From positions 62,001 to 126,000 of the forward strand of contig JAFYMC010000035.1 in the NCBI GenBank assembly GCA_017556805.1: 64,000 bases of DNA, read 5' to 3'. The position numbers and the translations under genes are program-made. Positions within the stretch are counted from its first letter, which is position 1; every line of letters begins with the position of its first letter. This DNA comes from Lachnospiraceae bacterium. GTDB lineage: Bacteria; Bacillota; Clostridia; Lachnospirales; Lachnospiraceae. Shown here piece by piece: positions 6,759 through 55,200 of this stretch. Below the pieces are notes generated by a model, which saw only the letters and a list, made by a program, of their open reading frames with translations, had not been told where the DNA came from and made no database searches.

Positions 6759-6869
6759 TTGCAATTTAAATTCTAATATGGTAGAATAGTACTACACCGT
6801 CACTCAAAATGAGGTTTGCGGACACTGATAATACTCGATGGGGATATTACAGGTGTAGAATTAGGTGTA
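6759..6869 (+). promoter_or_regulatory. Promoter and candidate BlaI operator of the 6885 gene
   Basis: TTGCAA at 6759-6764 and TAGAAT at 6782-6787 are 17 bp apart, a good sigma-A promoter. CTACACC at 6792-6798 is the inverted partner of GGTGTAG at 6852-6858, and AGGTGTA occurs again at 6863-6869. BlaI/MecI proteins bind TACA/TGTA half sites, so these may mediate autoregulation. The half-site spacing is wider than in the classical operators. Confidence 0.55.
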
Positions 6870-6884
6870 AAGGGGTTGAATTTC

Positions 6885-7250
6885 ATGGGCGATATTCGAT
6901 TACATGAAGGTGAATTAAATATTATGGAATTACTTTGGTCCAATAAGGTGTTGGCAGCAAAGGATATCTCAAAAATCATTAAAGAATATGTCGGTTGGGA
7001 AAAGAATACGACGTATACGGTAATTAATCGTTTGATTGAAAAAGGAGCGGTTAAGAGAGAAGATCCGGGATTCATTTGTAAGGCATTGATTTCCAAGCGG
7101 ACAGTACAAAATATCGAGACAAAGGCTTTGTTGGACAAGGTATACAACGGTTCATTAAACAATTTTCTGGTAGAATATCTGAAGAATCAGTTATTGACAC
7201 CGACAGATGTGATGGAGCTGGAACGCATCATCAGTGATTATAAGATGTAA
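6885..7250 (+). CDS. BlaI/MecI/CopY family transcriptional repressor (orphan)
   Basis: The 121-residue protein has the winged-helix domain of the penicillinase-repressor family (LNIMELLWSNKVLAAKDI, KNTTYTVINRLIEKGAV), followed by a helical dimerisation tail containing NFLVEYLKNQLL and ELERIISDYK. ATG 6885 follows AAAGGGG at 6869-6875. Unlike the BlaI at 57773-58138 it has no BlaR1/M56 sensor next to it, so its signal is unknown. The next gene is convergent and encodes the XerS-like recombinase. Confidence 0.88.
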   Translation: MGDIRLHEGELNIMELLWSNKVLAAKDISKIIKEYVGWEKNTTYTVINRLIEKGAVKREDPGFICKALISKRTVQNIETKALLDKVYNGSLNNFLVEYLKNQLLTPTDVMELERIISDYKM

Positions 7251-7297
7251 CCGTTTGACAGGGCAGATACGATTGCCTACTTACATAGTAAATTACT

Positions 7298-8353
7298 TTA
7301 TTTTTTTTCACGCAGTGTAACAGCATTTTTTGCACTGCGACGTCTTTCTTCCTCAATATCTGCGTAGTGCTTACGAGTAGTATTTACATCCTTGTGACCG
7401 AGGACATCGGCTACCAAATATATGTCACCGGTTTCTTTGTAAAGTTCCGTACCGTAGGTGCTACGCAATTTGTGTGGTGTAATCTTTTTTACGGTCGTCA
7501 CGACTCTGGCATATTTCTTTACCAAAACTTCCACATTGCGCACACTGATACGTTGCATACGATTGGACAAAAAGAAAGCATTTTCGTGTCCTTCCTTCGG
7601 CACGAGCTTTTTTCTTTCTTCGTAATAGGAGAGAAGGGCATCTCTGACTTCATCCCCAAAGTACACAAAGGATTCATAACCTCCCTTGCGGACAATATTG
7701 ATTCGGTCGCTGGAAAAATCAATATCTTTGATATCGATTCCCACACATTCGGATACACGGATGCCCGTGCCTAAAAGTAACGTGGTAAGGGCTAAATCCC
7801 GTAATTTATTGGATTCATGGCGTACTTGTTGTTGCTTGGTAAGGCGGGCGCCGCTTTCTACCTGGTCTAAGAAATCTGCAGCTTCGTTTGGCTCGAAACG
7901 AATAATGTTTTTCTCGTGAATCTTCGGCATAGTCACCTGTAACGTCGGATTTTCGTCAATCATACGATTGGCATGAAAATACCGGTAGAAGGTGCGCAAG
8001 GAAGAAAGCTTACGCTTAATTCCTCGCTCGTTGTTCGTAATTTCTTTTCCTTCCCGGTTTGTATATAACTTTAAATATTCCAGATATTCTTCGATATCCA
8101 TCGGTGTTAATTTGGTAAGCAATTGAAAATCAATGTCCTTTAAGGGTTTTCCTTGGTACAACGGATTGGTGGCGGAAATATACTCGAAAAACACATGCAA
8201 ATCAAAAGCATATGCAATTCGCGTACGTGATGCGGTAACCGGTTCAATGCCACGGAAAAAAGTCGCAACATAAGACGGCAAATCCGAAATCAGTTCGCGA
8301 AGACGTTTGGTATTTTGAATTGTTGTTTGTTCATGATAGGTACGTTGTTCCAT
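7298..8353 (-). CDS. XerS-like tyrosine recombinase
   Basis: The 351-residue protein has all six catalytic residues of a tyrosine recombinase: R199 (GTGIRVSE), K223 (VRKGG), H294 and R297 (ITPHKLRS), H320 (VLGHKDV) and Y330 (RKHY). The N-terminal SAM-like DNA-binding domain is longer than in XerC/XerD (about 300 residues). Total length and the early LPSYVATFFRG segment resemble Streptococcus XerS (about 356 residues), which resolves chromosome dimers alone. ATG 8353 follows GGAGG; an upstream TTG lies in that site. Two inverted repeats lie within 130 bp upstream, as with difSL and xerS. It could instead be an integrase of another kind, but no element is around it. Confidence 0.82.
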   Translation of the reverse strand: MEQRTYHEQTTIQNTKRLRELISDLPSYVATFFRGIEPVTASRTRIAYAFDLHVFFEYISATNPLYQGKPLKDIDFQLLTKLTPMDIEEYLEYLKLYTNREGKEITNNERGIKRKLSSLRTFYRYFHANRMIDENPTLQVTMPKIHEKNIIRFEPNEAADFLDQVESGARLTKQQQVRHESNKLRDLALTTLLLGTGIRVSECVGIDIKDIDFSSDRINIVRKGGYESFVYFGDEVRDALLSYYEERKKLVPKEGHENAFFLSNRMQRISVRNVEVLVKKYARVVTTVKKITPHKLRSTYGTELYKETGDIYLVADVLGHKDVNTTRKHYADIEEERRRSAKNAVTLREKK

Positions 8354-8390
8354 ACAAACCTCCAAAAACCGTAGTAAAAAGTGAAAACGT

Positions 8391-8416
8391 GATAAGCTTT
8401 TGGGGAAAAACTTATC
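8391..8416. repeat. Inverted repeat, 11-bp arms, upstream of the XerS-like gene
   Basis: GATAAGCTTTT and AAAAACTTATC flank a GGGG centre; the arms match at 10 of 11 positions, and the mismatch would be a wobble pair in minus-strand RNA. On the minus strand it is followed by short T-runs, so it could be an attenuator in the recombinase leader as well as a protein-binding site. Confidence 0.6.
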
Positions 8417-8439
8417 GGAGAGAAGTACTTAATGCTACC

Positions 8440-8479
8440 TACTAAATTGCGCTAAACCATAGTTTAACGAAATTTAGTA
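8440..8479. repeat. Candidate dif-like inverted repeat, 18-bp arms
   Basis: The arms TACTAAATTGCGCTAAAC (8440-8457) and GTTTAACGAAATTTAGTA (8462-8479) are inverted copies at 16 of 18 positions around a 4-bp CATA centre. The site begins 86 bp upstream of the recombinase start. Imperfect inverted arms around a short AT-rich centre are the form of Xer recombination sites. AGTACTT occurs on both sides at 8424-8430 and 8500-8506. An operator or an RNA hairpin is the alternative; no U-run follows. Confidence 0.5.
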
Positions 8480-8550
8480 CCGATATAAAGCCAAATAGCA
8501 GTACTTTTATCCATATTATTATCCTTATGGCAAATATTCTATGTTATATG

Positions 8551-10323
8551 TTATTTGTTCAGTTCCTTAAACATATTGACGATTGCTTTGTTGTTTTCCT
8601 TTGAAATTAAATAATTATATCGATATAAAACAAAACCGTCTACATTATCTGTGTTTCTGGCATAACGAATCATATTGCGTAAAACATTATTATCTTTGTA
8701 CCAGGCAGTTCCTTCGTCTTTAAGGCCGGCCTTATAGGCAGCTACACCTACGTAGAATTTCACGTCCGGATTCTTTGGTACGGCAAGAAAACGATCTAAA
8801 ATATCGTTGTACGGGTAAACGCTGTGATCGTTGCTCCAATACAACTGCGGACACAAATAATCAATATATCCGTCGTGACCCAGCCAGGTTTCAAAATCTA
8901 CATAATATTTATCATCGGCCTTTAAGGCGTCCATAAAACCGCCCGGACTGATACCGAATACAACATCGGGATTAATCTTCTTTATAGAGGAATACACGCT
9001 CTTCACCAAGGTATTTACGTTTTCGCGTCTCCAGTCCGCGATGGATAAATACTCTTTATTATTTGTGATTTGTTTGTCCTTATAATCCTCGTATTCCGGT
9101 GCATCAAAATTGCTTGTGAAATTTTTGCCAAGCGACGGATAGAAATAATCGTCAAAGTGAATACCGTCTACGTCGTAATTTCGGACAATTTCCTTGATTC
9201 CGTTGGTAATCAGATTCTGAACCTGCTTTACGGACGGATTATAATATAAACTTCCGCTGTAAGTAAGCACATAACGGTCGTTCTTTTTGGAACTGTCGGT
9301 ACGGTAAACTCTGGCAGGATTGTCTTTGCTTAACGTCTTTACATCGGTAGAATTTGACGTTACACGATAAGGATTTAACCATGCATGAAACTCCAGACCC
9401 CTTGCGTGAGCCTCTTCTACCATGATTTCTAACGGATCAAAGCCCGGGGCTTTTCCTTGTTTGCCGGATGCATAGCGGGACCAAGGGAAATAATCGGACT
9501 CGTACATAGCATCACCAAACGGACGAACATGAACTACAACAGCATTCATATTACGTTCGCAGACCTCGTTAAACATTGTCTCGATATGCTTACGAAACTC
9601 TTTTTCGGTATAACCGGAGGATTTGAATTCCAAATAGGAAATCCATACTGCGCGGAATTCCTTCTCAGCCTCGGTATCATTTCCGAAACGACGAATGATA
9701 ATATGAGAATTACCTGCGGCATCTGTGGCTGCAAAGGTATATTTTCCTTCCTTTAACGGAAGCGTTACATAATCGGAAAAAGACGGCACATCCTTCCAAA
9801 CAGCATCCTCTAAGGAGGCATATGCACCTTCTACATAACGAATATCAACCGAATGGGATGTGGTATCGTCTGTAGCGGTTAATGTTACAAAATAGTAATC
9901 GTCTAACTTTTCTTCGCTGACAGTAAACTCCGGCGCTGTGGTGTCGATATTTCTGATTTTAAAGGTAATAAGGGACTCTTCCCCTTTTTCGTTTAGCGCA
10001 AAAACAGAATAATATCCGTTTTCCGTAACCGTAAAGGATGCCTCTCCGGCTTTGTTTGCTTTGAGTACAATACCGTTTTTCTCGTAATCGGTAAAATGTC
10101 TGCTGTATGCAACACGTTTGTTCGTATACTTAAACATGGTAAGCTCTGTGGAACTCTTTACCGATACCTTGATCTCCAATGACTGACTCGGAGTCGTCTT
10201 GTCGTAATCGACGGAAAGCTGTAAGGCTGCGGCATTTGCCGGTGTCAGATGTGGTAAGGCAAAGCTCAGTAATACCACAAGGACAAGTAACAGTGTCCAT
10301 TTAATACGCTTTAAAAATCTCAT
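8551..10323 (-). CDS. Exported glycosyl-hydrolase-like protein (GHL10/YngK family)
   Basis: The 590-residue protein has a signal peptide (basic start, hydrophobic core about residues 10-30, then ANAAA). Two beta-sandwich or Ig-like stretches occupy about residues 35-215. The GHL10 (DUF187) TIM-barrel domain follows, with EFRAVWISYLEF, VVHVRPFGDAMY, GLEFHAWLNPYR, VDGIHFDDYFYP and VVFGISPGGF. The family acts on extracellular or wall polysaccharides, but the substrate is not known. RBS GGAGA precedes ATG 10323. It lies 10 bp downstream of the amidase and is probably co-transcribed with it. Confidence 0.9.
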   Translation of the reverse strand: MRFLKRIKWTLLLVLVVLLSFALPHLTPANAAALQLSVDYDKTTPSQSLEIKVSVKSSTELTMFKYTNKRVAYSRHFTDYEKNGIVLKANKAGEASFTVTENGYYSVFALNEKGEESLITFKIRNIDTTAPEFTVSEEKLDDYYFVTLTATDDTTSHSVDIRYVEGAYASLEDAVWKDVPSFSDYVTLPLKEGKYTFAATDAAGNSHIIIRRFGNDTEAEKEFRAVWISYLEFKSSGYTEKEFRKHIETMFNEVCERNMNAVVVHVRPFGDAMYESDYFPWSRYASGKQGKAPGFDPLEIMVEEAHARGLEFHAWLNPYRVTSNSTDVKTLSKDNPARVYRTDSSKKNDRYVLTYSGSLYYNPSVKQVQNLITNGIKEIVRNYDVDGIHFDDYFYPSLGKNFTSNFDAPEYEDYKDKQITNNKEYLSIADWRRENVNTLVKSVYSSIKKINPDVVFGISPGGFMDALKADDKYYVDFETWLGHDGYIDYLCPQLYWSNDHSVYPYNDILDRFLAVPKNPDVKFYVGVAAYKAGLKDEGTAWYKDNNVLRNMIRYARNTDNVDGFVLYRYNYLISKENNKAIVNMFKELNK

Positions 10324-10333
10324 ATAATCTCTC

Positions 10334-12772
10334 CTATCTTGTTATACGTTTGGGCGGATATGTTTCAAAAATCTCGGTTACGGTATCAAATATAGCTTTT
10401 GCAGCTTTTTCTTGATAGGAGGAACTCTTGATTTTCTCAAAATCCTTATTGTTAGTTATAAATCCACACTCCACTAAAACCGCAGGAACGGTATTGTTAT
10501 GTATGACAATAAATTTGTCCGTTAGGACTCCGTTGTTTTTGGTTCCCCAGGCATTTGACAGTCGGTTGCAGATTTCAGTCGCCAAAAGGGAACTTCGCAA
10601 GCCGGAATCCGTAATGCCGTTGTTTGATTTGGAAAAATAAACGCTCGTACCGTTTACGGAGGAATTGGAATGGGCGTTTACGTGGAAACTGATAAATAAA
10701 TCAGCTCCTACAGTGGCCGCAAACGCCGCTCTGGTCTCGAGCGCAATTTTGGTGTCCGTGGTACGGGTAAAGTATACTTTGATATCGGAATCCTTAAAAT
10801 ACTCTTTTGCGTAAACATTGATTACGTTGTAGTTGATATTTTTCTCATAAACACTTCCGCGTAAGGTACCCGGATCAATACCGCCGTGCCCTGCATCCAG
10901 AACGATTATTTTGTCGTAAATCTCCTTGGGGTCTCCAATCTTAACAGCCAGGAAATCATCGGCCACCGTAAATTGATAGCCTTGAATTTTCGTAGTGTTA
11001 AAGGTAAGTATCGTGGTGTCGTTTGCCACCTTATAACTAAATTGGACATTCTTTAAAGTGGTTACCGGATTATAATAATCCTGCTCCGAAAGAAAACGCA
11101 TATGGTTGCCCGGAATAGCTATGGTAAAGCGATTCTTTTCATATTCGTCATTGTCGATTATGGCACTTTTTGCGATGCTTTCCGGGAGTTTTATTACGAA
11201 ATGATCTCTGGTAAAAACTGCATCCGGCAAATACTCCGATAAGTCTTCTCCTTCAAATACATCCGTATAATTCGATTCGGTATCCGTCTCCGGGGAAGCG
11301 ATATCATTTTGCTCCGTAAAACGCATATAATCCTCATACATACCGTTACTATCCGTAAAATGAACGACACAACCGTCCGGTGCGGAATAGGTATAGTACT
11401 GTAATTCCCGGTTTTTAATAATAAGAATCTTAATTGTATCGGTGCCGCTGATATAAAAATAATTTAAAAATGCAGCTTCCGGATTGAAATTTACCTTTCC
11501 GTTGTAGGGATTATGAACGCCGGATATTGTTAGTTCCAGGATGTCTTCTTTGTCGGTAAATTGCAGTTGACTGCTATCCACTCCTTTTATATACAGGGCA
11601 TCCGAATTAATGCAGGAATAAGCGGAAATCGCCTCCGGCACACGACAATCCCGTTGGGTAAAGTACTCCGTAATCTGCTCATGAGTCTCGTAAGAAAACA
11701 GACAAGAGCCGTAAGACGCGGAATCCGGCAACAACTCTGCAAGTGTATCCTGTTCTGCGGAAGTATCTGTATCAGGAGGTTCTACAGTACCGGTGTTCGG
11801 CTTAGGAAGGTCTCCTGTTACCTGAAAAACTTCGGTTGTAAGATCATAAGAAACGGTATATCCCAAAGCCTCCAGTACAAAGGCTACAGGAACATATACA
11901 CTCGGGCCGGATGCCTCCGGCGGAGTAATCAGACGAGGAACCGTGGGTAAAATATAGGCTTCTTCATCAATATAGGCCACCGGACTTTCCAAAACCAGAC
12001 GAACCATACGCTCTCCTGTCTTAAACAGAATCAGTCCACTGCCCTCTGCATAGGCAAAGGAAGCGAGGCCGGTATCCCTTATGTACTTTTCTGCGGAAAA
12101 TAAAACGGTGTTATCGAGAACATACCCCGGATAGTCTCCTTGTGTGACCGGACGGTCCTGTAACCAAAATGTCGGAGAATCACCGCTGTATTTGATACGT
12201 TCGTTACCGTCATAAATAATATTGGTCCGTCGGATAATAGCTGTGGAGGCCACCTCGTTCCAGGTATATTCAAAGCCGAAGGTCTCTGCCACGAAACGAG
12301 TCGGCACGTAAAGGTGCTTCTCTGTAGCATCCCCGAAGGAATACACCACCGGCGCGTTGTTCATCAGGCATTTGGTGCCGTTTACAACAGCTTCGCGATT
12401 GCCTAACGTCATCTCAATGGTATGCGGGCCGTAGGAAACCGTAAATTTTGTACGACCGTCGACATAATCGGTTTTTGCGCCTAAAGCTTCCTGAAAGACC
12501 TCACGAAACGGGCCTACCGCAGCACCGTTTGATAAAATCAGCCCCGGCGGAGCAGATTCCAAAAGGGAACCGTCTACTTTATAACGGACTGTCTCGCCGG
12601 TATAGGAAACGGTATCGTCGGTTACATAGTTATGTACTGATATTGTTGCAGCCGTTGCGGAGTAAACCGGCGGCCGTGCAAGTCCCGCGAAAAGTAGGGA
12701 GGTCATACAAAAAACGCTCAGAACACAGCGTACTATTTTTCTATTACGGATATTGTCTTTTGTTCTTTTCAT
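10334..12772 (-). CDS. N-acetylmuramoyl-L-alanine amidase with copper-amine-oxidase-type stalk domains
   Basis: The 812-residue exported enzyme should cut the bond between muramic acid and the stem peptide of peptidoglycan. A signal peptide fills about the first 40 residues. Two copper-amine-oxidase N-terminal-like domains, which serve as wall-binding modules, appear around residues 115-195 and 255-325 (KHLYVPTRFVAETFG, VYVPVAFVLEALGY). A long middle region of unknown fold follows. Amidase_3 lies at about residues 625-805 with the Zn-ligand motifs LDAGHGGIDPG, SFHVNAH and the glutamate in VLVECGF. AGGTGG lies 13 bases before ATG 12772. Confidence 0.93.
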   Translation of the reverse strand: MKRTKDNIRNRKIVRCVLSVFCMTSLLFAGLARPPVYSATAATISVHNYVTDDTVSYTGETVRYKVDGSLLESAPPGLILSNGAAVGPFREVFQEALGAKTDYVDGRTKFTVSYGPHTIEMTLGNREAVVNGTKCLMNNAPVVYSFGDATEKHLYVPTRFVAETFGFEYTWNEVASTAIIRRTNIIYDGNERIKYSGDSPTFWLQDRPVTQGDYPGYVLDNTVLFSAEKYIRDTGLASFAYAEGSGLILFKTGERMVRLVLESPVAYIDEEAYILPTVPRLITPPEASGPSVYVPVAFVLEALGYTVSYDLTTEVFQVTGDLPKPNTGTVEPPDTDTSAEQDTLAELLPDSASYGSCLFSYETHEQITEYFTQRDCRVPEAISAYSCINSDALYIKGVDSSQLQFTDKEDILELTISGVHNPYNGKVNFNPEAAFLNYFYISGTDTIKILIIKNRELQYYTYSAPDGCVVHFTDSNGMYEDYMRFTEQNDIASPETDTESNYTDVFEGEDLSEYLPDAVFTRDHFVIKLPESIAKSAIIDNDEYEKNRFTIAIPGNHMRFLSEQDYYNPVTTLKNVQFSYKVANDTTILTFNTTKIQGYQFTVADDFLAVKIGDPKEIYDKIIVLDAGHGGIDPGTLRGSVYEKNINYNVINVYAKEYFKDSDIKVYFTRTTDTKIALETRAAFAATVGADLFISFHVNAHSNSSVNGTSVYFSKSNNGITDSGLRSSLLATEICNRLSNAWGTKNNGVLTDKFIVIHNNTVPAVLVECGFITNNKDFEKIKSSSYQEKAAKAIFDTVTEIFETYPPKRITR

Positions 12773-12883
12773 AGAAAAAAGTAAACCACCTTTCCTAAGA
12801 ATCCCATAAGTGCATTGTACAGATTTATTGTAGATAAGAAAAGTGTTATAAGTGTGTCAAAATGTCCTATGAAAAGAAAAAAC

Positions 12884-12912
12884 TTGTCAAAAACCGCATG
12901 ATATGGTATAGT
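12884..12912 (+). promoter_or_regulatory. Sigma-A promoter of the TtcA-like gene
   Basis: TTGTCA at 12884-12889 and TATAGT at 12907-12912 are separated by 17 bp, with a 60-base leader and GGAAAGGA before the gene. The rest of 12773-12883 should hold the divergent amidase promoter; TTGACA occurs there on the minus strand, but no clear -10 was found. Confidence 0.75.
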
Positions 12913-12971
12913 TGATATGCCAAAAGTACTATATCTTAGAATTTGAGGAAAAGATTGGAAAGGAATAAGAT

Positions 12972-13712
12972 ATGAAGTTGCAGCAACTACTCAGCTATAC
13001 AAGAAAAGCGGTGGATGATTATCAGATGATTCAGCCGGGAGATAAAATCGCAATCGGTATCTCGGGAGGAAAAGACTCCCTCGCACTGCTCTATGCACTG
13101 GCGGGGCTGCGACGGTTTTATCCGAATCCTTTTGAATTGTGTGCAATTACCGTAGATTTGGGATTTGAAGGCTTTGATTTGAGTGAAATCAGAGCTCTGT
13201 GTGAGGAACTACAGGTGCCGTATTATGTACAGAAGACGGAAATCGGGGACGTGATTTTTAATGTTAGAGAAGAAAGCAATCCCTGTTCCCTATGTGCAAA
13301 GCTTAGGAAGGGAGCCTTTAACGATAAAGCCAAGGAACTGGGCTGTAACAAGTCTGCCTATGCCCATCACAAGGACGATGTGATAGAGACAATGCTGATG
13401 TCTTTGTTATATGAAGGAAGATACAACTGCTTCTCTCCCGTGACCTATCTGGACCGCTCGGACATTACGCTGATACGCCCGTTAATCTATGTGGAAGAGG
13501 CAGATATCATAGGCTTTCAGCATAAGTACAATCTTCCGGTAAAGAAGAACCCGTGTCCGGCGGACGGATTAACAAAACGTGCCGATACCAAAGACCTGGT
13601 AAAGCGCTTAAACGAGGAATATAAAGGATCCAAGGAGCGGATGTTCCATGCGATTACCGATGGTACGTTACCGGCCTGGAAAAAGGCGGAAAACGGTTCG
13701 AGAAGAAAATAA
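12972..13712 (+). CDS. TtcA/TilS-type PP-loop ATPase, tRNA 2-thiocytidine synthesis type
   Basis: The 246-residue protein has the PP-loop SGGKDSLALL and the TtcA-like order of cysteine motifs: CSLC in NPCSLCAKLRKG and the later NPCPADG. TtcA enzymes thiolate C32 of some tRNAs using an iron-sulfur cluster. YAHHKDDVIETMLMSLLY is the family's central motif. The ribosome site GGAAAGGA lies 7 bases before the ATG. A terminator follows. Firmicute members of this family have not all been tested, so the exact tRNA product is inferred. Confidence 0.85.
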   Translation: MKLQQLLSYTRKAVDDYQMIQPGDKIAIGISGGKDSLALLYALAGLRRFYPNPFELCAITVDLGFEGFDLSEIRALCEELQVPYYVQKTEIGDVIFNVREESNPCSLCAKLRKGAFNDKAKELGCNKSAYAHHKDDVIETMLMSLLYEGRYNCFSPVTYLDRSDITLIRPLIYVEEADIIGFQHKYNLPVKKNPCPADGLTKRADTKDLVKRLNEEYKGSKERMFHAITDGTLPAWKKAENGSRRK

Positions 13713-13731
13713 AGGATAACGAGTAGGTAAG

Positions 13732-13773
13732 AGACGTTGGCTTGTCGGAAAGGACTAAGACAGCGTCTTTTTT
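13732..13773 (+). terminator. Terminator of the TtcA-like gene
   Basis: AGACG (13732-13736) pairs with CGTCT (13764-13768), extended by GCTTGTC with GACAGC, and the plus strand continues with a T-run. It overlaps the last codons of the convergent LysM gene. Confidence 0.7.
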
Positions 13774-14150
13774 ACGTAGTACTGAACCACCAGATAGGTA
13801 TCCGGATAAATGGTGTCGCTCTCTAAATGATTCGTCTCCTTGATGGAACGGACAAACTCCGGGATACTCTCTTTCTCCTCACAATAAAAGCGCTCCGCAA
13901 TCTTCCAGAGGGAGTCATTCTCCGTAACACGTACGGAAACGATACGCTTCTCATAAGTAACGGTACTTTCGGCCTCTGCCTGGGCAGACGGTGCAAACAG
14001 TAAAATGGCAAGAATAATGACTGCAATGCTAAGCACAGCAATGGCAACCTTCTGTAAAACAGCTTTACGCTTCATGCTGCGACGGTCCTCGGCAATCTGC
14101 CGGTAAGAACGATACTCGTTTACAATCTCGTGATTTACTACTCTATCCAT
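13755..14150 (-). CDS. LysM-domain membrane protein, YneA-like SOS division inhibitor
   Basis: The 131-residue protein has a basic cytosolic N-terminus, one membrane segment (about residues 34-55) and an external LysM domain (SVRVTENDSLWKIAERFY to about residue 125). This is the layout of YneA, the Bacillus protein that blocks division during DNA damage. It is divergent from lexA, with LexA-box-like sites between the genes, which supports SOS control. I chose ATG 14150, seven bases after GGAGG; the ATG at 14156 sits against the ribosome site. The SOS role is inferred from context and architecture. Confidence 0.88.
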   Translation of the reverse strand: MDRVVNHEIVNEYRSYRQIAEDRRSMKRKAVLQKVAIAVLSIAVIILAILLFAPSAQAEAESTVTYEKRIVSVRVTENDSLWKIAERFYCEEKESIPEFVRSIKETNHLESDTIYPDTYLVVQYYVKKTLS

Positions 14151-14198
14151 ACTCATACCTCCTAAAAACAGAACAAACATTCCCGAACATCTGTTTAT

Positions 14199-14227
14199 AA
14201 TATAACATGCGAACAATTGTTTGTCAA
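14199..14227 (-). promoter_or_regulatory. Promoter of the LysM gene
   Basis: On the minus strand TTGACA (14222-14227) and TATATT (14199-14204) are 17 bp apart. The box at 14210-14223 covers the spacer and part of the -35, so bound LexA should block polymerase. Confidence 0.8.
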
Positions 14228-14257
14228 TAGGTTTTTATAAAAATTTCGAACAAAAGT

Positions 14258-14286
14258 TTGACAAACAGGTGTTTGATGTGTTATAC
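14258..14286 (+). promoter_or_regulatory. Promoter of lexA
   Basis: TTGACA at 14258-14263 and TTATAC at 14281-14286 are 17 bp apart. Boxes at 14247-14260 and 14262-14275 cover the -35 and the spacer, and one at 14297-14310 follows the start site, as expected for autoregulation. Confidence 0.85.
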
Positions 14287-14336
14287 TTGGTACAAGGAAA
14301 CAAAAGTTTGTTTTATGATAGAAGGAGGTAACGTCT

Positions 14337-14951
14337 ATGGGTTATGGTAAAATCACTGCAAAGCAGCAGGAAATCTTAGACTTTATGAAAGAACGTATTT
14401 TGAATAAGGGATATCCGCCGGCGGTGCGTGAGATTTGTGAGGCCGTTAAGTTAAAGTCCACTTCTTCCGTACATGCACATCTGGAAAGCCTGGAGAAGAA
14501 CGGTTACATTCGTCGAGACCCGGCAAAGCCACGTGCCATTGAGATTGTAGACGATAATTTCAATATCACCCGTCGTGAGATGGCGTATATTCCGGTAGTA
14601 GGTACCGTGACTGCAGGCCAGCCGATCTTAGCCGTGGAGAATGTTGAGTCCTACTTCCCTATCCCGACGGATTATTTGCCGAATGCGGAGACTTTTATGC
14701 TTCATGTGAAGGGCGACAGCATGATTAATGCCGGCATCTTTAACGGCGATCAGATTCTGATTAAGAAGCAGAATTATGCAAAGAACGGTGATTTTGTTGT
14801 GGCTCTTATCGAGGATTCTGTTACGGTAAAGACTTTTTATAAAGAAGACGGCTACTATCGTCTCCAACCGGAAAATGACACCATGGACCCGATTACCGTG
14901 AACGAAGTCGAGATTTTGGGTAAGGTTATCGGATTGTTCCGGATGTTCTAA
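14337..14951 (+). CDS. lexA: LexA repressor
   Basis: The 204-residue SOS repressor has the N-terminal winged helix (EILDFMKERILNKGYPPAVRE, written in LexA form over residues 9-30) and a C-terminal S24 self-cleavage domain. The Ala-Gly cleavage site is in VGTVTAGQPI, the serine in GDSMINAGI and the lysine in VTVKTFYKE. RecA filaments trigger self-cleavage and derepression. The ribosome site GAAGGAGGT is close to ideal. A strong terminator follows, so the gene is monocistronic. Confidence 0.98.
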   Translation: MGYGKITAKQQEILDFMKERILNKGYPPAVREICEAVKLKSTSSVHAHLESLEKNGYIRRDPAKPRAIEIVDDNFNITRREMAYIPVVGTVTAGQPILAVENVESYFPIPTDYLPNAETFMLHVKGDSMINAGIFNGDQILIKKQNYAKNGDFVVALIEDSVTVKTFYKEDGYYRLQPENDTMDPITVNEVEILGKVIGLFRMF

Positions 14952-14983
14952 ATCTGTCAAGTTCTTTGAATCAAAATCAATAT

Positions 14984-15027
14984 AAAACGAAGGAGAAGGT
15001 TCCATATGGTCCCTTCTCTTTCGTTTT
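14984..15027 (+). terminator. Rho-independent terminator of lexA
   Basis: AAAACGAAGGAGAAGG (14984-14999) pairs with CCTTCTCTTTCGTTTT (15012-15027) with one mismatch and a 12-base loop; the A and T tracts at the ends let it act in both directions. Confidence 0.88.
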
Positions 15028-40719: not shown

Positions 40720-41289
40720 TTAGATTTCCAAGGACAACTGCATTTCTTCTTCTACCTCGAGCTTGAAATCCTCTACCTTTTCCGGATTGATGACCGGCAA
40801 ATCATCCAGGGAAACCAGTCCGAAGCAGCGTAAAAACTCTTCTGTCGTACCGAACAAAATCGGACGGCCCGGTGCATCCAGACGACCAACCTCCTGAATT
40901 AAATTATACTCTACCAGTTTATTGACCGCATGGTCGCAGGAAACGCCTCGGATTGCTTCGATTTCCTGACGGGTAATAGGTTGCTTATAGGCAACAATAG
41001 ACAAGGTTTCCAGTAAAACCTCCGTCAATACGTGCTTTTTCGGTACATGGGCAATCTTAATAATAGACTCGTACATAGACGATTTGGTACACATCTGGAA
41101 CGAACCGTCCAGCTCGATAATCTGAATGCCGCGATCGTCTGCTTCGTAGCGGTCCATCATATTCCGCAGTACTCTGCGTACCGTGTCCACATCATGCTCC
41201 AATGCCGTAGCCAGGCGGTCTACCTCCACAGCTTCACCCATGGTAAATAAAATAGCTTCTAATTGTGCTTCCAACTCTTGTAACTCCAT
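40720..41289 (-). CDS. scpB: Segregation and condensation protein ScpB
   Basis: The 189-residue kleisin partner binds ScpA and SMC in chromosome condensation. Two winged-helix domains are seen (LEAILFTMGEAVEVDRLA, LLETLSIVAYKQPITRQEIE, VSCDHAVNKL, GRPILFGTTEEFLRCFGL). It lies 12 bases after scpA and has a normal length. Confidence 0.97.
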   Translation of the reverse strand: MELQELEAQLEAILFTMGEAVEVDRLATALEHDVDTVRRVLRNMMDRYEADDRGIQIIELDGSFQMCTKSSMYESIIKIAHVPKKHVLTEVLLETLSIVAYKQPITRQEIEAIRGVSCDHAVNKLVEYNLIQEVGRLDAPGRPILFGTTEEFLRCFGLVSLDDLPVINPEKVEDFKLEVEEEMQLSLEI

Positions 41290-41301: not shown

Positions 41302-42081
41302 TTAAAAATCCGAATCTTCGAAGTCAATGATATCCTCCGCTAAGTATTCGATTTCGATTTCATCAAAAATTTCTTCCTGCACTACGTGCATTCTGCCGAT
41401 TTTCATCAGCTCAAGTATACATAAAAATGTTACGACAACATCCATCTTGTCATACTGTTCCATCAACAGTGCGCGGAAGGAAAAACGCTTGTTGGCAAGG
41501 GCGTACTCCTGAATTTCCCGCATCTTTTTCGACATGCTGACTTCTTCTTTTTCGATACGACCGAATTTGCTTCGTACCGGGTCGATTTTCTCTACCTGCT
41601 TTTTCATCACCGATTCGAAAATCGAGTGTAGCTTTTGCAGGGTCAAATCCGACAATAATGCCTGAGTATCGATAGGCTCCTTGTAATCCGCGATTTCCGG
41701 CGGAAGGTTCGCCTCCTTAAACAACACTCGTCCTGCGTCCAATTGGCGGTCAGAAAGCTCCAAAGACGCATATTTGTACATTTTGTACTGCAATAAGCGC
41801 TCTACCAGCTCCTGACGCGGATCTACCGGCTCTTCCGTGTTCTCCGGCTCCTCTTGAGGAAGCAGCATCTTGGACTTAATGTTAAGCAGTGTGGCTGCCA
41901 TAACCAGAAACTCACTCATGATTTCCATGTCCTGTTCCTGCATCTGTCTGATATAGTCCATATATTGCTCTGTGATTTCCACAATCGGAATGTCGTAGAT
42001 ATTTATTTTGTTTTTTTCGATGAGGTGCAGCAATAAATCCAGCGGCCCCTCAAATTTTTCCAACGTAACGGACAAACTCAT
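41302..42081 (-). CDS. scpA: Segregation and condensation protein ScpA
   Basis: The 259-residue kleisin links SMC heads. The start FEGPLDLLLHLIEKNKINIY and IVEITEQYMDYI are diagnostic; the C-terminal winged helix (VTFLCILELMKIGRMHVVQE) binds SMC. ATG 42081 follows GAGGAA. The phosphoesterase gene ends two bases before it, so the three genes 42932-40720 form one unit. Confidence 0.97.
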   Translation of the reverse strand: MSLSVTLEKFEGPLDLLLHLIEKNKINIYDIPIVEITEQYMDYIRQMQEQDMEIMSEFLVMAATLLNIKSKMLLPQEEPENTEEPVDPRQELVERLLQYKMYKYASLELSDRQLDAGRVLFKEANLPPEIADYKEPIDTQALLSDLTLQKLHSIFESVMKKQVEKIDPVRSKFGRIEKEEVSMSKKMREIQEYALANKRFSFRALLMEQYDKMDVVVTFLCILELMKIGRMHVVQEEIFDEIEIEYLAEDIIDFEDSDF

Positions 42082-42083
42082 AG

Positions 42084-42932
42084 TTATTTCCTCGTTTTTG
42101 TATTGATGATACAATATTCTATCCGGTTAAACAAACGTGCCGGCAGGGAATGGGAACCGATTCCGGCGCTTACGACCATTGTAGAATCTCCTTCTTTATA
42201 GCAACCGCGGGTATAAGGCGGCAAATAAAGCTGAGGAGAAATCAAACCGCCCACCACCGGTAACCGGATAATGCCTCCGTGATTATGCCCGGACACCACA
42301 AGGGGCGCAAGCTTCGCGTAGGCCGGAAAATGATCCGGAAAATGTGCCAAAAGTACGGTGCTTTCCGGGTGTTCGATAAAAAGCTCCTCTGTCGCCCTTA
42401 GCGGCAGCTCCTGCCGTTTTCTTTTATAATAATACTCGTGCTTAAGGGTCAAGCCTGCAAATTCAATATTCTTCCCCCGTAGAACAAGAGAAACCGTCTC
42501 GTTATCAAGGAACGAAATCCCCATATCTTCCACGGTATTACGATATGCTTCAAACTGCTCCGGGAAATAGGCACGAAGCCGTTCTTCATGGTTTCCCATA
42601 CCGTATACCACCGGTGCGATTTCGGTTAGTTTCTTTAAAAAGGCCGGAACGCGTCGGTTTTCTTTTTTGCCGTACTTGCTGATCATGTCGCCGGCCAATA
42701 AAATCACATCCGGTGCTTCCTTCTTTAACTGTCGGAGTACCCGGGCATTGTTGCAAATCAAAGGATTGCAGTGTAAATCGGAAAGCATAAGAATCCGCAG
42801 ACCGGATAATCCTTCCGGTACCTCTGCGTCATATTCTCTTCTTACCGGCACGCCGTGTTCCGCAAGCTGATATATCGTTGCACCGATTGCCACTGCCGCC
42901 GTACCGAGAAAAAAAAGACTGCTGCGTTTCAT
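42084..42932 (-). CDS. YkuE-like membrane-anchored metallophosphoesterase
   Basis: The 282-residue protein has an N-terminal hydrophobic anchor (about 5-24) and a calcineurin-like phosphoesterase domain with metal-binding motifs MLSDLHCNP, LLAGDMIS, GMGNHE, LLAHFPDH and VSGHNHGG. YkuE-type enzymes act outside the membrane on lipid-linked or wall substrates. GGGAGG precedes ATG 42932. It is directly upstream of scpA. Confidence 0.92.
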   Translation of the reverse strand: MKRSSLFFLGTAAVAIGATIYQLAEHGVPVRREYDAEVPEGLSGLRILMLSDLHCNPLICNNARVLRQLKKEAPDVILLAGDMISKYGKKENRRVPAFLKKLTEIAPVVYGMGNHEERLRAYFPEQFEAYRNTVEDMGISFLDNETVSLVLRGKNIEFAGLTLKHEYYYKRKRQELPLRATEELFIEHPESTVLLAHFPDHFPAYAKLAPLVVSGHNHGGIIRLPVVGGLISPQLYLPPYTRGCYKEGDSTMVVSAGIGSHSLPARLFNRIEYCIINTKTRK

Positions 42933-47041: not shown

Positions 47042-47076
47042 AAGCCCGTCCCTAAGCTCTGGGATGGGCTTTTTTG
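47042..47076. terminator. Terminator shared by the DAHP synthase and XerD-like genes
   Basis: AAGCCCGTCCC (47042-47052) pairs with GGGATGGGCTT (47061-47071), followed by T5 on the plus strand. The right arm is inside the last codons of the XerD-like gene, which encode the conserved HPRA ending. Confidence 0.85.
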
Positions 47077-47933
47077 TACATCTCCGGCACCGACTGGGTC
47101 TGGCGCTCAAAGTTCATGGCCGCAGACAGACGCTTGGTTCCGAGGAGCTGGTGGACTCCCGCGTAGGAAGCACCGTTGCTCATTAAATGGTTTATCATGG
47201 AATTTCGCAGGATACGGGGCGTAATGTTCGGTAATCCTGCTTTTTTTGTATATTCGGTAATTCGCTTAAAGAACCCCTGCCTTGTCATTTCTTCCCCGGA
47301 TTTATTGTAAAATAACAGCTCCGGGTCCGAGTCCTGTTTCCGTAACGTTTCTCTTCCGCTCTCTAAATAGGCTTCCAGTGCGTCACAAGCCGGTTGGCCC
47401 AAAGGAAGTACCCGGTTCTGCTCTCCTTCACTTACAAGAAGAACTTTATATTTTAATTGAATTTGAGAAAGCTTTAAGGCAAGCAGGGAATTCAGATGAA
47501 TGCCGGTGGCATACAACACCTCTAACATGGCCCGGTCCCGGAGTCCCTTCGGCGTATCGTTATCCGGTGCTGCCAGTAAGGCTTCCAGTTCGTTTAAGGA
47601 AATAATCTCCTGCTGTGCCGGGTCCGCTTTCGGTGCTTTGATTCGTTCCGCCGGGTCATCCTTTAGGATTCCCTTTTTCGTTAAATAATCAAAAAAACTG
47701 TGGATGCTGGAAACCAGTCGCACAATGGAGGAGGCTTTCAGTCCCTCCCGTTCCGCGGAAAGAATAAAGGAATTTAACTGAGTTTCCGTTATTTGTTCCA
47801 CGGTAGCGACGCCGTTTCCGCGCAAATAGTTTACCATTCGTTGCAAATCCGATCGATAGGCAAGCATGGTGTTTTCGGAAACCTGCTTTTTCTCTTTTCT
47901 ATACTCACAAAACGTCTGTATATAAGCCTCCAT
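47052..47933 (-). CDS. XerD-like protein with degenerate tyrosine-recombinase active site
   Basis: The 293-residue protein aligns along its length with XerD, including the final HPRA. Five of the six catalytic residues are replaced: R to H146 (ATGIHLNS), K to E169, H to R240 (ITPRILRN), H to T266 (LLGTKR) and the tyrosine nucleophile to F275; only R243 remains. It can probably bind DNA but not cut it. Streptococci also have a XerD-like gene of this kind, near scpA. The frame is intact, with GGAGGG before ATG 47933, so it looks conserved rather than decaying. Confidence 0.88.
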   Translation of the reverse strand: MEAYIQTFCEYRKEKKQVSENTMLAYRSDLQRMVNYLRGNGVATVEQITETQLNSFILSAEREGLKASSIVRLVSSIHSFFDYLTKKGILKDDPAERIKAPKADPAQQEIISLNELEALLAAPDNDTPKGLRDRAMLEVLYATGIHLNSLLALKLSQIQLKYKVLLVSEGEQNRVLPLGQPACDALEAYLESGRETLRKQDSDPELLFYNKSGEEMTRQGFFKRITEYTKKAGLPNITPRILRNSMINHLMSNGASYAGVHQLLGTKRLSAAMNFERQTQSVPEMYKKAHPRA

Positions 47934-48002: not shown

Positions 48003-48545
48003 TTACATCTCTTTGTTTCTTTTTTGTTCCTGATAAGCAAACAAGCCCGCCACGGTCTTGGAATCGGAAATGGTTCCGTTCATAATCATCTCAATCAATT
48101 CTGTGAGCGAATACCGCTCAATGGTCACGTATTCGTTGTCATCCAGCTCCAGCTCTGCGTAGCCCGTTACCTTACAGTAAAACATATGAACCTTTTCATC
48201 GTTGTATGCCGGCGACGGCTGAATCATAAGAAGAGGCTTTGCTTCTTCGCACAAGGCGCCTGTCTCCTCACGAAGCTCTCTGATTGCTGCCGTCATCGGC
48301 TCCTCGCCTTGGTTGATTCCTCCGGCCGGCAGCTCTAAGATTTCTCCTTCCGCACCGGGACGCCATTGACGAATCATTACAATCCGTCCGTCTGCATCCT
48401 CCGCTACCATGGCTGCCGCACCGTTATGATGTATGAAATCCCAGTTCGCAAAATTACCGTTGGCAAAGGCCATGGAGTCGGTGTACATGGAAATCCAGGC
48501 TCCCTTATAGACCAACGAACGGTCAATACGCTTTATTTTCTCCAT
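48003..48545 (-). CDS. NUDIX hydrolase, ADP-ribose pyrophosphatase type
   Basis: The 180-residue enzyme has a full Nudix box (GGINQGEEPMTAAIRE followed by LREETGA) and the ELPAGG start seen in ADP-ribose pyrophosphatases. It would split ADP-ribose to AMP and ribose 5-phosphate. It lies between proC and the XerD-like gene, as often in Lachnospiraceae, and is 17 bases after proC. Confidence 0.92.
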   Translation of the reverse strand: MEKIKRIDRSLVYKGAWISMYTDSMAFANGNFANWDFIHHNGAAAMVAEDADGRIVMIRQWRPGAEGEILELPAGGINQGEEPMTAAIRELREETGALCEEAKPLLMIQPSPAYNDEKVHMFYCKVTGYAELELDDNEYVTIERYSLTELIEMIMNGTISDSKTVAGLFAYQEQKRNKEM

Positions 48546-52297: not shown

Positions 52298-55200
52298 TTA
52301 GTTCATCCAATCCGGTTTCGGAAGCTTCGTTACATCTACCCAGACGGCCGGACGAATCAGTACATGCTGTTCCTTAATCGCCTCTTCCTCAAAGGAAATA
52401 CTTCCGTCCGGCATCACTCTTGCAAATTGTACCTCAGAAAAATCACCGTCGGTGGTTCCGGTTACAGTAACAATCCACGGAACCGCTACATCCGTAAACT
52501 TAATATTTTTATCCAGCCATGCACCCTTTTGTGCCGCAAAGGCAGTCGGAATCGTGATTCTGGCTTCTTCGGTCCGGAAATACGGTGTATCATCCTGACT
52601 TTTTCCATATAACACATCGTCGGTTTCCAATAAAAAGGTATAGCCCGGATAAAGCAAGCGTTCATTTGGGTACGCAACGGATTCGTTTTTCATCGGATTT
52701 GTCTTTATCAATGCCGCCCGCTCCTCTGCAGAAAAAGCCGCCTCATAAATCGTTCGATTCATCATCCGATACAAGTCATCCACTTCCCAAGACTCTAATG
52801 TTTTGTCTTTATCCCACAGTAAAGTTTCGATGCCGTATTTGGAAAGAAGCAATGCCCGGTCACTGTCCCTATCCAGAACCAGCCATTCTAACGGTTCCTT
52901 TCCGTTGGAATAATCTCCATCCTGTTCATAGGCTCCGAATATGATGGACCGATCCTTCTGTGGGTCGTAAGTAAAGCTGTTCGGCTTTGATGCATACGGG
53001 GCATGTTTCCATGTAATGCCGCCGTCCTCGGACACGAAACAGGAGCTTTGGGATGTAGTACCGCTGATTTCAAACCAGCATACAACCGTATCCTTCTCCG
53101 GAATCAGTATCCTTGCGATGCCTCCTTCCGCTACAGAAAAATCCTCAGCAACCAATCGCCAGCTTTGCCCGCTGTCATCACTGCGATAAATATTGTAATA
53201 TACACTGCCTGCTGCAGCCTCCTGAGGAAGGAATGCGATTCTTACTCCGATGGCTTCATTAATCCCTAAATTAGGGGAGCCTATCTCGATTGGCTGACCA
53301 TCAATCAAAAACGTCTCTGTACTGTTTCCTTTATATATTTGATGGATAGCTGCACAGGCCATAACCCGTTCAAACTGCTCTGGATCTACAGAGTCAAGAG
53401 GCTTAATCCCATGTCCGTCAAACACATCCGGCCAACCGTCTCCATACTCTATGGTGTAGTCCTTTGTATAATTACTATAAAAAAACATTTGTGAAAAGGA
53501 ATGTAAATTCCCTTCTAACTCCCCGAAGGAAGTTTCAAATACTTCGGAATCGTTAATAATCAAGTATGCATATGGATATAAATTTTTCTCTAAGTCGTGT
53601 TCCGATACAATGACCTCGATTTTTAAATGATCCCTGTAACCGTTTCGTTTTAAATCGGAGTATATTGAGGAAATCTCATTGGTCAAATCTACCGGATTTC
53701 CATAGGCAGGTTTTTTCGTGGCCGGTACATAGACTTTATCGCTTCCGATACTTACAATTTCACCGTTCTCCAATCTTTCCCTCATAATGTCTGTTCTCTG
53801 CGCAACAATCCGAGTCGGAGATGTCGCGACGTAATACTTTTCCGGTTTAAATTCAACCCAATATTCTGTATCCTTAATTACAGTTTTTAAGTATACATCC
53901 TTTGTATTAACGTCTTTTGCACTACTATAAAGCTCATAGGAACATGTATAGCCCTCCTGCGGATACTGTGACGGATACAACCATGCCTGATGATTCAGAT
54001 ACTCTAAAAATACAGTTTTAATTTCTTCGTAGTTGTAGCGCTCCGGTAATTCCTTTACGATTTCCGGTACCGCTCCCGCCATAAGTACCTTTCCGTTCTT
54101 TGTAATACCGACCGTGACGCTTCCGTTGGTATTTATCGCAATCACATTGGTCCAGTCGTCCACGTCGCATTGTCCTACATCGCTTCGTCCCGGACAAACC
54201 GCAACTACGGTACCGTCACCTCTTAAGCCGACTACGGTCTCGTTCCCGACCGCAATTTTAACGATGCCGCTCCATTGTTCGATGGTATTTATCAGATACT
54301 CCTGCTCCACACCCTCGGAAATCACAGTGCCATCGAGTTTCAGACCTACAAAGAAATTGTAGCCGGCTGCAATCTGCTTCAGCTTTTCCGGCCAGGTGTC
54401 CAGCTTTTTCTTGCGTAATACATCACTAACTTCTGTCATTACAAGGGTGCCGTCTTCTTTTAAACCGGCAATAACTCCGTTGGTTTTCGCCGTTATTTCT
54501 ACTACTCCTGTCAGTTCTTCTTTTTCTCCGAGATATAATACGGTTCCGTCTTCAAGCAGTGCCGTATACCTATCATACGGATAGGTAGAGAAAATTTGCT
54601 TCACCTCTGATATGGTTTCAAAGTCTTTTGCAATGGCCGGGTCAGGTTTCCCGAGTCCGTAATTACCTCCAGCTTCCGCTACCTCCTTTAGAATTTCTTC
54701 TAAGATGGCCTGCATTTCCGCTGCTGTCTCATAATAAGACACGGAAAGTCGTCCCTCTTCATCAATCGCTACCAGACGATACGGGTCGGTTCCCAGCGCT
54801 TTATAGGTTTTTGATGTGTCAATTCCTCGTGTAGCACCTACGGTGTCACTCTCTGTTACATAAGAAACGTCATACAACACATGCAGCTTTCCGTCCTCAT
54901 CCAGATATGCCGCATACTCGTCACCGATGGCAATGGAGAGGTTGGTGGTTTCAATCGCCGTTACCAGTTCACCTCTGTTTTTGTTATACTCATTTTTCAG
55001 GTTATAGCACCCTTCGATTACTACCTCTTCCACTACCGATAAATCAAGATCAATAACCTTTAGCTTCGGACAATTTTTAATAATGACTTTCTTTAAATCC
55101 GTCGCATCTCCTGCAATATATTCAAGAGACGGATGTCCGTCAATGACAAGAGAATCCGCGCTACTGATATATAGGTCCGTCAAATTCGGAAGATGGTCTA

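Follow-up and report, generated by a model that had tools for sequence, protein, structure and literature searches.

The window analysed here is a 64,000-nucleotide stretch of a Lachnospiraceae bacterium (C37:62001-126000 of a 2.9-Mb assembly that is 86% complete). Near its left end, a gene for a long tyrosine recombinase is preceded by a large palindrome, in a region where the strand composition of the contig switches:

7298-8365, minus strand: XerS-like tyrosine recombinase, 355 amino acids from a TTG start, with an ATG at codon 5
8440-8479, no strand assigned: 40-bp imperfect palindrome with 18-bp arms, 16/18 matched, and a CATA centre
8443-8476, minus strand: dif-like site in the 34-bp frame common to relatives, with a proposed 11-6-11 core at 8446-8473 and its central 6 bp at 8457-8462
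7275-15000, no strand assigned: GC-skew switch of the terminus region, from the change point at window position 7275 to the cumulative maximum at 14,999

The recombinase keeps all six catalytic residues (R203, K227, H298, R301, H324 and Y334 in TTG numbering). The original prediction named the same residues with numbers four lower, because it counted from the ATG; none of the six varies in a 20-row alignment of XerS-like relatives. It conforms to the size of approximately 356 amino acids and the R-K-H-R-H-Y set expected of XerS. The best NCBIfam match is XerS (NF003462), at 200 bits versus 166 for XerC and 145 for XerD, and the same family gives the best E-value among all families for 20/20 relatives. 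The description 'XerS-like' therefore stands as a best family match but not as membership of the curated family, since 200 bits falls short of the NF003462 equivalog cut-off of 267 bits, which is passed in 6/299 genomes of the phylum and in 1/14 genomes of a control set. The closest named relatives of the protein are from Lachnospiraceae and allied MAGs, the best at 68% identity. We placed it in a tree of 54 rows that included XerD and other Xer proteins (13 of the 19 other Xer loci, the remaining six having yielded no row) and no XerH row, and in which L264, L256 and L255 are long branches. The window protein falls within a clade of 24 rows (support 99/93) and the over-cut-off XerS proteins form a second (100/98); this second, streptococcal clade and that of the window are together monophyletic (97/89). 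Given this joint support, and the 27-30% identity between window-clade recombinases and over-cut-off XerS proteins, the window protein is, as judged from sequence, of shared XerS descent with the streptococcus-like proteins, as a divergent sister clade. An AlphaFold model (pLDDT 79, pTM 0.48) aligned to XerA, XerD and XerH with a TM score of only about 0.3, and we accordingly draw no structural argument for the family. The gene evolves under strong purifying selection, with a median dN/dS of approximately 0.03 (0.031, from the 34/36 pairs that were computable), a rough ratio because dS is near saturation. Five further loci with over-cut-off XerS genes (L256-L260, in G327, G082, G165, G278 and G126) belong to genomes of 4.6-7.3 Mb, and in one relative (G012:C2:103222-108095) a tandem pair of XerS-like genes, whose products are 51% and 59% identical to the recombinase of the window, lies downstream of one site.

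The predicted inverted repeat upstream of the gene was recovered with the same arms and centre, and begins 87 bp from the recombinase ATG, or 75 bp from the TTG. A scan of the window for inverted repeats of this quality (17-bp arms, 6-bp gap, at least 15 matched) returned one, and none in each of 50 mononucleotide shuffles. At up to 3 mismatches the palindrome is found at one place in the genome, in agreement with the single-copy site that was anticipated. Its 34-bp form has the core TATTCGnnAAA-N6-TTTnnCGAATA. In an ungapped alignment (A1) of 21 sites lying beside xerS in the genus of the window and in other genera (within 1.5 kb of xerS in the latter), T6, C8, G9, A12-14 and T21-23 are invariant; and in 63 aligned sites (A4, made up of 16/21 A1 sites, the site of L262 and 46/54 sites of named loci, with near-copies and two weak sites omitted) the AAA-N6-TTT spacing is fixed at 6 bp and the arms are equal. 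Among 57 distinct sites, 9/14 arm positions vary on both sides, and 84.3% of arm cells pair, versus 36-48% when slid, in a count that treats G-U as paired although it is no dyad match in DNA. Such covariation and near-symmetry of the arms is the pattern expected if one protein binds both. The dyad is broken at positions 10/25 (T opposite G, 34/57 sites) and 11/24 (unpaired, 40/57 sites), and this asymmetry could confer polarity on the site.

The coding strand switches at approximately 7.25 kb of the window. Across the 215-kb contig, GC skew runs from +0.15 to +0.26 on the left, and to the right it drops to values between -0.05 and -0.25. The site begins at contig position 70,440; the change point of a two-segment split falls 1.2 kb away, at 69,275, and the cumulative maximum 6.5 kb away, at 76,999. 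The site thus sits at the skew switch of its own contig, in what appears to be the terminus region, as had been proposed. We also computed skew on contig stretches around 40 site regions of other genomes, demanding flanks of 2.5 kb or more on either side, which dropped G016, G037, G041 and G052 for their short flanks and left 36 places. At 32 of these the skew goes from positive on the left to negative on the right, as a terminus would show whichever way the contig is read; the flip was not seen at the second match of G022, nor in G035, G040 and G047. The cumulative peak is no more than 250 bp from the site at 10/36 places and no more than 3.5 kb from it at 28/36. Where the site is on another contig than xerS, the flip is present in five of seven testable cases (G045, G046, G049, G053 and G054) and absent from G040 and G047, such that it tracks the site rather than the gene. 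In G057, which consists of one contig, skew could be read in 19 of 20 sampled 20-kb pieces, and the site-bearing piece is the only one to flip, with its skew peak 154 bp from the site. In the window, a gene for a Penicillinase_R (BlaI-type) regulator (6816-7250) ends right before the strand and skew switch.

The gene and the site co-occur far beyond this genome. Of 61 sampled genomes of the order, 56 have a xerS match scoring 250 bits or more, and R1, a sequence-only search model (cmsearch, E<=0.1) built from 21 sites beside xerS, matches in 50 of the 61, including 48 of the 56 with xerS. G051, the sole genome of the 61 without a XerS match, likewise lacks a site match; G202, a further genome from the same family, has no strong XerS match. 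R1 found no site in G017, G023, G026, G029, G034, G044, G050 and G060, the remaining eight XerS genomes, and a position matrix suggests a site downstream of xerS in G050 (L265). Site and gene share a contig in 37 of the 48 genomes and occupy separate contigs in 11; the site is upstream in all 37 pairs, at a median distance of 776 bp (range 17 bp to 52 kb, sometimes with other genes intervening; within 2 kb in 27 pairs and 10 kb in 33). Because 21 of these pairs helped to build R1, the fairer figure comes from the other 27 genomes, 16 of which have both on a shared contig, with the site upstream in 16/16. A second collection of 80 named loci, each with at most 3 kb of flank, yielded a site in 54 (53 upstream, one downstream; 26 without a site within that flank), including those of Roseburia inulinivorans, Eubacterium uniforme and Enterocloster alcoholdehydrogenati. 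Within the genus of the window the site is no more than 80 bp upstream of xerS in 9/10 sampled genomes, and 3.8 kb upstream in G008. Of the expectation that the repeat would always be found beside the gene, the upstream position and its conservation in genus and order hold, but strict adjacency is not general. A PP-loop-family gene, as also found in the window, separates the site from xerS in L348 and, judging from translations of the DNA upstream of the gene, does so in several relatives too:

12972-13712, plus strand: PP-loop gene, which we take to be TtcA-like

One genome (G059:C23:118000-130000, L106) carries two sites 4.3 kb apart. Between them lie two metabolic genes, a gene for an AraC-type regulator and a truncated XerS paralogue, the second site being upstream of that paralogue itself.

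The site also occurs in phages. At least 120 stretches of viral contigs match its 22-base exact pattern, compared with none for a scrambled palindrome of like form. Among the 80 viral loci listed (L299-L378), four carry Zot-like and Rep-like filamentous-phage genes (L328, L347, L348 and L352); in a Pfam scan covering L328, L347 and L348, Zot is over the cut-off in L348 and L328 and just under it in L347, and Rep families are matched in L347 and L348. In three of the four, host xerS lies across the site from the inovirus-like genes. L347 and L352 are near copies (97-99%) and so count as about one case, and L328 has no DNA similarity to L347 other than the 34-bp site at its end, which is identical. 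L352 is the most detailed example: a 29-bp segment, made up of 8 bp of flank plus the site's left half and its centre, is present again as a direct repeat at a distance of 6.2 kb (2352-2380), and the inovirus-like genes lie between this repeat and the full site (8588-8621). Direct repeats at both ends of a provirus are a mark of site-specific integration, and filamentous-phage-like elements appear to integrate via the reaction proposed below for dimer resolution, with recombination presumably performed by host XerS. Beyond the half-site repeat is a second inovirus-like gene set, which suggests a tandem array of proviruses in this locus. The other 76 of the 80 listed loci are mostly tailed-phage-like, with the site intergenic in 74, and the commonest PHROG near the site in such loci is the terminase small subunit (14 of 99 frames, in a scan of 99 of the 136 nearest open frames from the viral loci listed). 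Among 131 host loci around sites or xerS, Zot and Rep profiles match only L149 and L170, both from G022. The second site match of that genome, around which the skew does not flip, runs into the 3' end of a Rep-like open frame belonging to an inovirus-like cluster, and may be phage-borne or a chance match.

Genome content bears on whether one recombinase or two act at this site. XerS is the sole Phage_integrase (PF00589) gene in G043, G045 and G050, which are 98, 95 and 100% complete, and XerD orthologues are missing from many well-completed genomes. The assembly of the window holds three Phage_integrase genes: the XerS-like gene, a degenerate XerD and a third, integrase-like gene with weak matches to Xer families. 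Intact xerC and xerD with a canonical dif had been named as counter-evidence to a single-recombinase system, and neither two catalytically intact Xer proteins of this kind nor a match to the B. subtilis-type dif at up to 3 mismatches was found in this genome, although at 86% completeness the absence of other Xer genes is provisional. The dif pattern used as query is one that we take to be the B. subtilis type. The FtsK gamma domain is present in 8/8 genomes searched.

The degenerate XerD lies between scpA-scpB and a NUDIX gene, all on one strand:

40720-41289, minus strand: ScpB
41302-42114, minus strand: ScpA (condensin kleisin), about 5 kb from the degenerate XerD
47052-47933, minus strand: degenerate XerD orthologue (box I Arg to His, HxxR His to Arg, second His to Thr, Tyr to Phe)
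48003-48545, minus strand: NUDIX gene adjoining the degenerate XerD

The loss of these catalytic residues bears out the earlier observation that the other Xer gene of the window has a dead active site. Farther along the window (52298-57769), an ORF of 1,823 amino acids gives the impression, from its sequence, of a M56/BlaR1-type membrane-peptidase-like start followed by a very long C-terminal part. A XerD orthologue is present in 9/10 genomes of the genus, and among these nine the HxxR His and the second His are lost in all, the box-I Arg in eight and the Tyr (to Phe) in six; by comparison, in other genera R, H, R, H and Y are all retained by 19/21 orthologues (Lys being left out of this count), those of L078 and L091 departing. 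The median dN/dS of XerD in the genus is 0.064, from 26/36 computable pairs, versus 0.031 for XerS, both rough given that dS is near saturation; on this estimate, a catalytically dead XerD evolves under purifying selection in the genus. Its distance from ScpA is 5-6 kb in the eight genomes of the genus that have both on one contig. As XerD of B. subtilis unloads SMC at the terminus, according to work cited in PMC12322038, a guess that fits is that the dead protein keeps a role of the SMC-unloading type. The joint reading, in which XerS alone resolves dimers and a dead but DNA-binding XerD encoded beside scpA-scpB acts on SMC condensin, for example by unloading it at the terminus, is one that we put forward tentatively and think rather less probable than otherwise. 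If true, a natural separation-of-function XerD exists, and the genus offers a natural test of whether the role of XerD in SMC handling is separable from recombination.

Taken together, gene and site very probably constitute the module that resolves chromosome dimers in this bacterium and in most members of its order, which would be the Lachnospirales. The best reading is that the module works like XerS/difSL, as a divergent sister variant. The XerS/difSL-like module of the original prediction is thus upheld by the gene, the site, its terminal position and their co-occurrence, but qualified by the sister-clade position of the enzyme, the symmetric arms and the looser linkage. By analogy with XerS/difSL and XerCD/dif, each site would be occupied by two recombinase monomers, one on either CGnnAAA half-site; at the division septum, FtsK would pair and activate the two sites of a chromosome dimer; and the recombinase would then, in two steps, cut and rejoin strands around the 6-bp centre, converting the dimer to monomers. 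The gene and its catalytic residues, the site with its copy number and position, the co-occurrence of the two, the phylogeny and the provirus boundaries were observed directly, whereas binding, strand exchange, FtsK control and dimer resolution are inferred.

Other explanations of the palindrome were considered. It might be an operator of xerS or a transcription terminator instead of a recombination site, a reading compatible with the covariation of its arms and with its position in the window, 75-87 bp ahead of the gene; a distance that ranges elsewhere from 17 bp to 52 kb with genes in between, a skew flip that follows the site onto contigs lacking the gene (5/7 testable), and the presence of the site in viral contigs make this very unlikely. 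That it is a replication fork-arrest (Ter-type) site, placed by chance at the terminus beside xerS, would account for its position at the skew switch, yet is scarcely credible: fork traps are usually several and polar, whereas this element occurs singly and is palindromic, shares its half-site core with difSL and forms the boundary of a phage provirus. Both the regulatory and the fork-trap readings were rejected on position, spread and phage use.

The remaining alternatives accept recombination and concern its owner. XerS and the site could be the integrase and attachment site of a mobile element that has settled at the terminus, to which the inovirus-like proviruses abutting the site and the XerS paralogue that accompanies a second site in G059 lend some colour; but a gene matched at 250 bits or more in 56/61 genomes, under strong purifying selection, which is the sole Phage_integrase gene of three small genomes and whose uninvaded host loci hold no phage gene by Zot and Rep profiles (131 loci, L149 and L170 excepted), is exceedingly unlikely to be such an element. 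We consider it just as improbable that XerS requires the degenerate XerD as an inactive partner in a two-protein system: the retention of that protein under purifying selection in 9/10 genomes of the genus would be explained, but G043, G045 and G050 have no XerD orthologue and retain XerS nonetheless, and the arms of the site are near-symmetric.

If gene and site do form a dimer-resolution module, a single-recombinase system would seem to be the default across a large order to which gut genera such as Roseburia, Enterocloster and Oribacterium belong, and chromosome separation by one enzyme looks far wider than the streptococci. The site may serve as a terminus marker for draft genomes, in that skew flips there, and offers a concrete target both for testing and for chromosomal integration tools. 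It would also explain where the filamentous phages of these hosts sit and, if the tentative joint reading of XerS and the dead XerD is true, the XerS-dif of Lachnospirales is a common docking site for filamentous and tailed phages.

Among known systems, XerS/difSL is the closest in kind, sharing a single recombinase of approximately 356 amino acids and a linked site at the terminus (PMC5357621, PMC2731167 and PMC3025954). In the literature consulted, XerS is described for streptococci and lactococci, with a xerS gene also in L. helveticus (PMC3025954). In contrast to difSL, which has unequal arms and a large central region according to PMC5357621, sites of the window clade are near-symmetric with equal arms; they do not always adjoin the gene, and the recombinases form a clade of their own (99/93). 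The difSL letters are found upstream of XerS in a streptococcus-like locus (L255), and difSL set ungapped in the 34-bp frame matches all nine A1-invariant columns. A cmsearch scan with R1 at E<=5 did not return the streptococcal difSL. A weighted position matrix made from the R1 sites ranks it first among all positions of L255 with 11.5 bits, against a 95th percentile of 10.3 and a maximum of 12.0 for the best scores in each of 100 mononucleotide-shuffled 4-kb sequences, a match that is suggestive, not conclusive. Matrix candidates were also seen in L256, L261, L262 and L265, and nothing above shuffle level beside the four over-cut-off XerS genes of L257-L260, nor in L264.

XerCD/dif, represented by CodV/RipX in B. 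subtilis, resembles the present system in its 11-6-11-type terminus site and in the use of that site by filamentous phages (for XerCD, PMC7307601), but differs in employing two recombinases rather than one and another half-site, XerD being absent or degenerate in many of the genomes considered here. XerH/difH of Campylobacter and Helicobacter likewise pairs a single long recombinase with a nearby site (PMC5357621 and PMC2731167), and the recombinase profile matches the solved structure of XerH, among others (E 1.4e-10); XerH and XerS are phylogenetically unrelated according to PMC2731167. The arrangement in L352, with an intact site on the host side and a half-site repeat at the other end, is like the integration of CTXphi-type inoviruses at dif, with the difference that the host enzyme would be a single XerS-like recombinase, and the hosts are of Lachnospiraceae type. 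In the open-licence literature, as far as titles and the opening lines of abstracts indicate (PMC8138268 among them), we found no treatment of XerS/dif in Lachnospiraceae or clostridia, nor, by title, of inoviruses at a clostridial dif. The kind of system is thus already known, and what appear to be new, within that literature, are the sister clade of recombinases, its site, their spread and the phages that use them.
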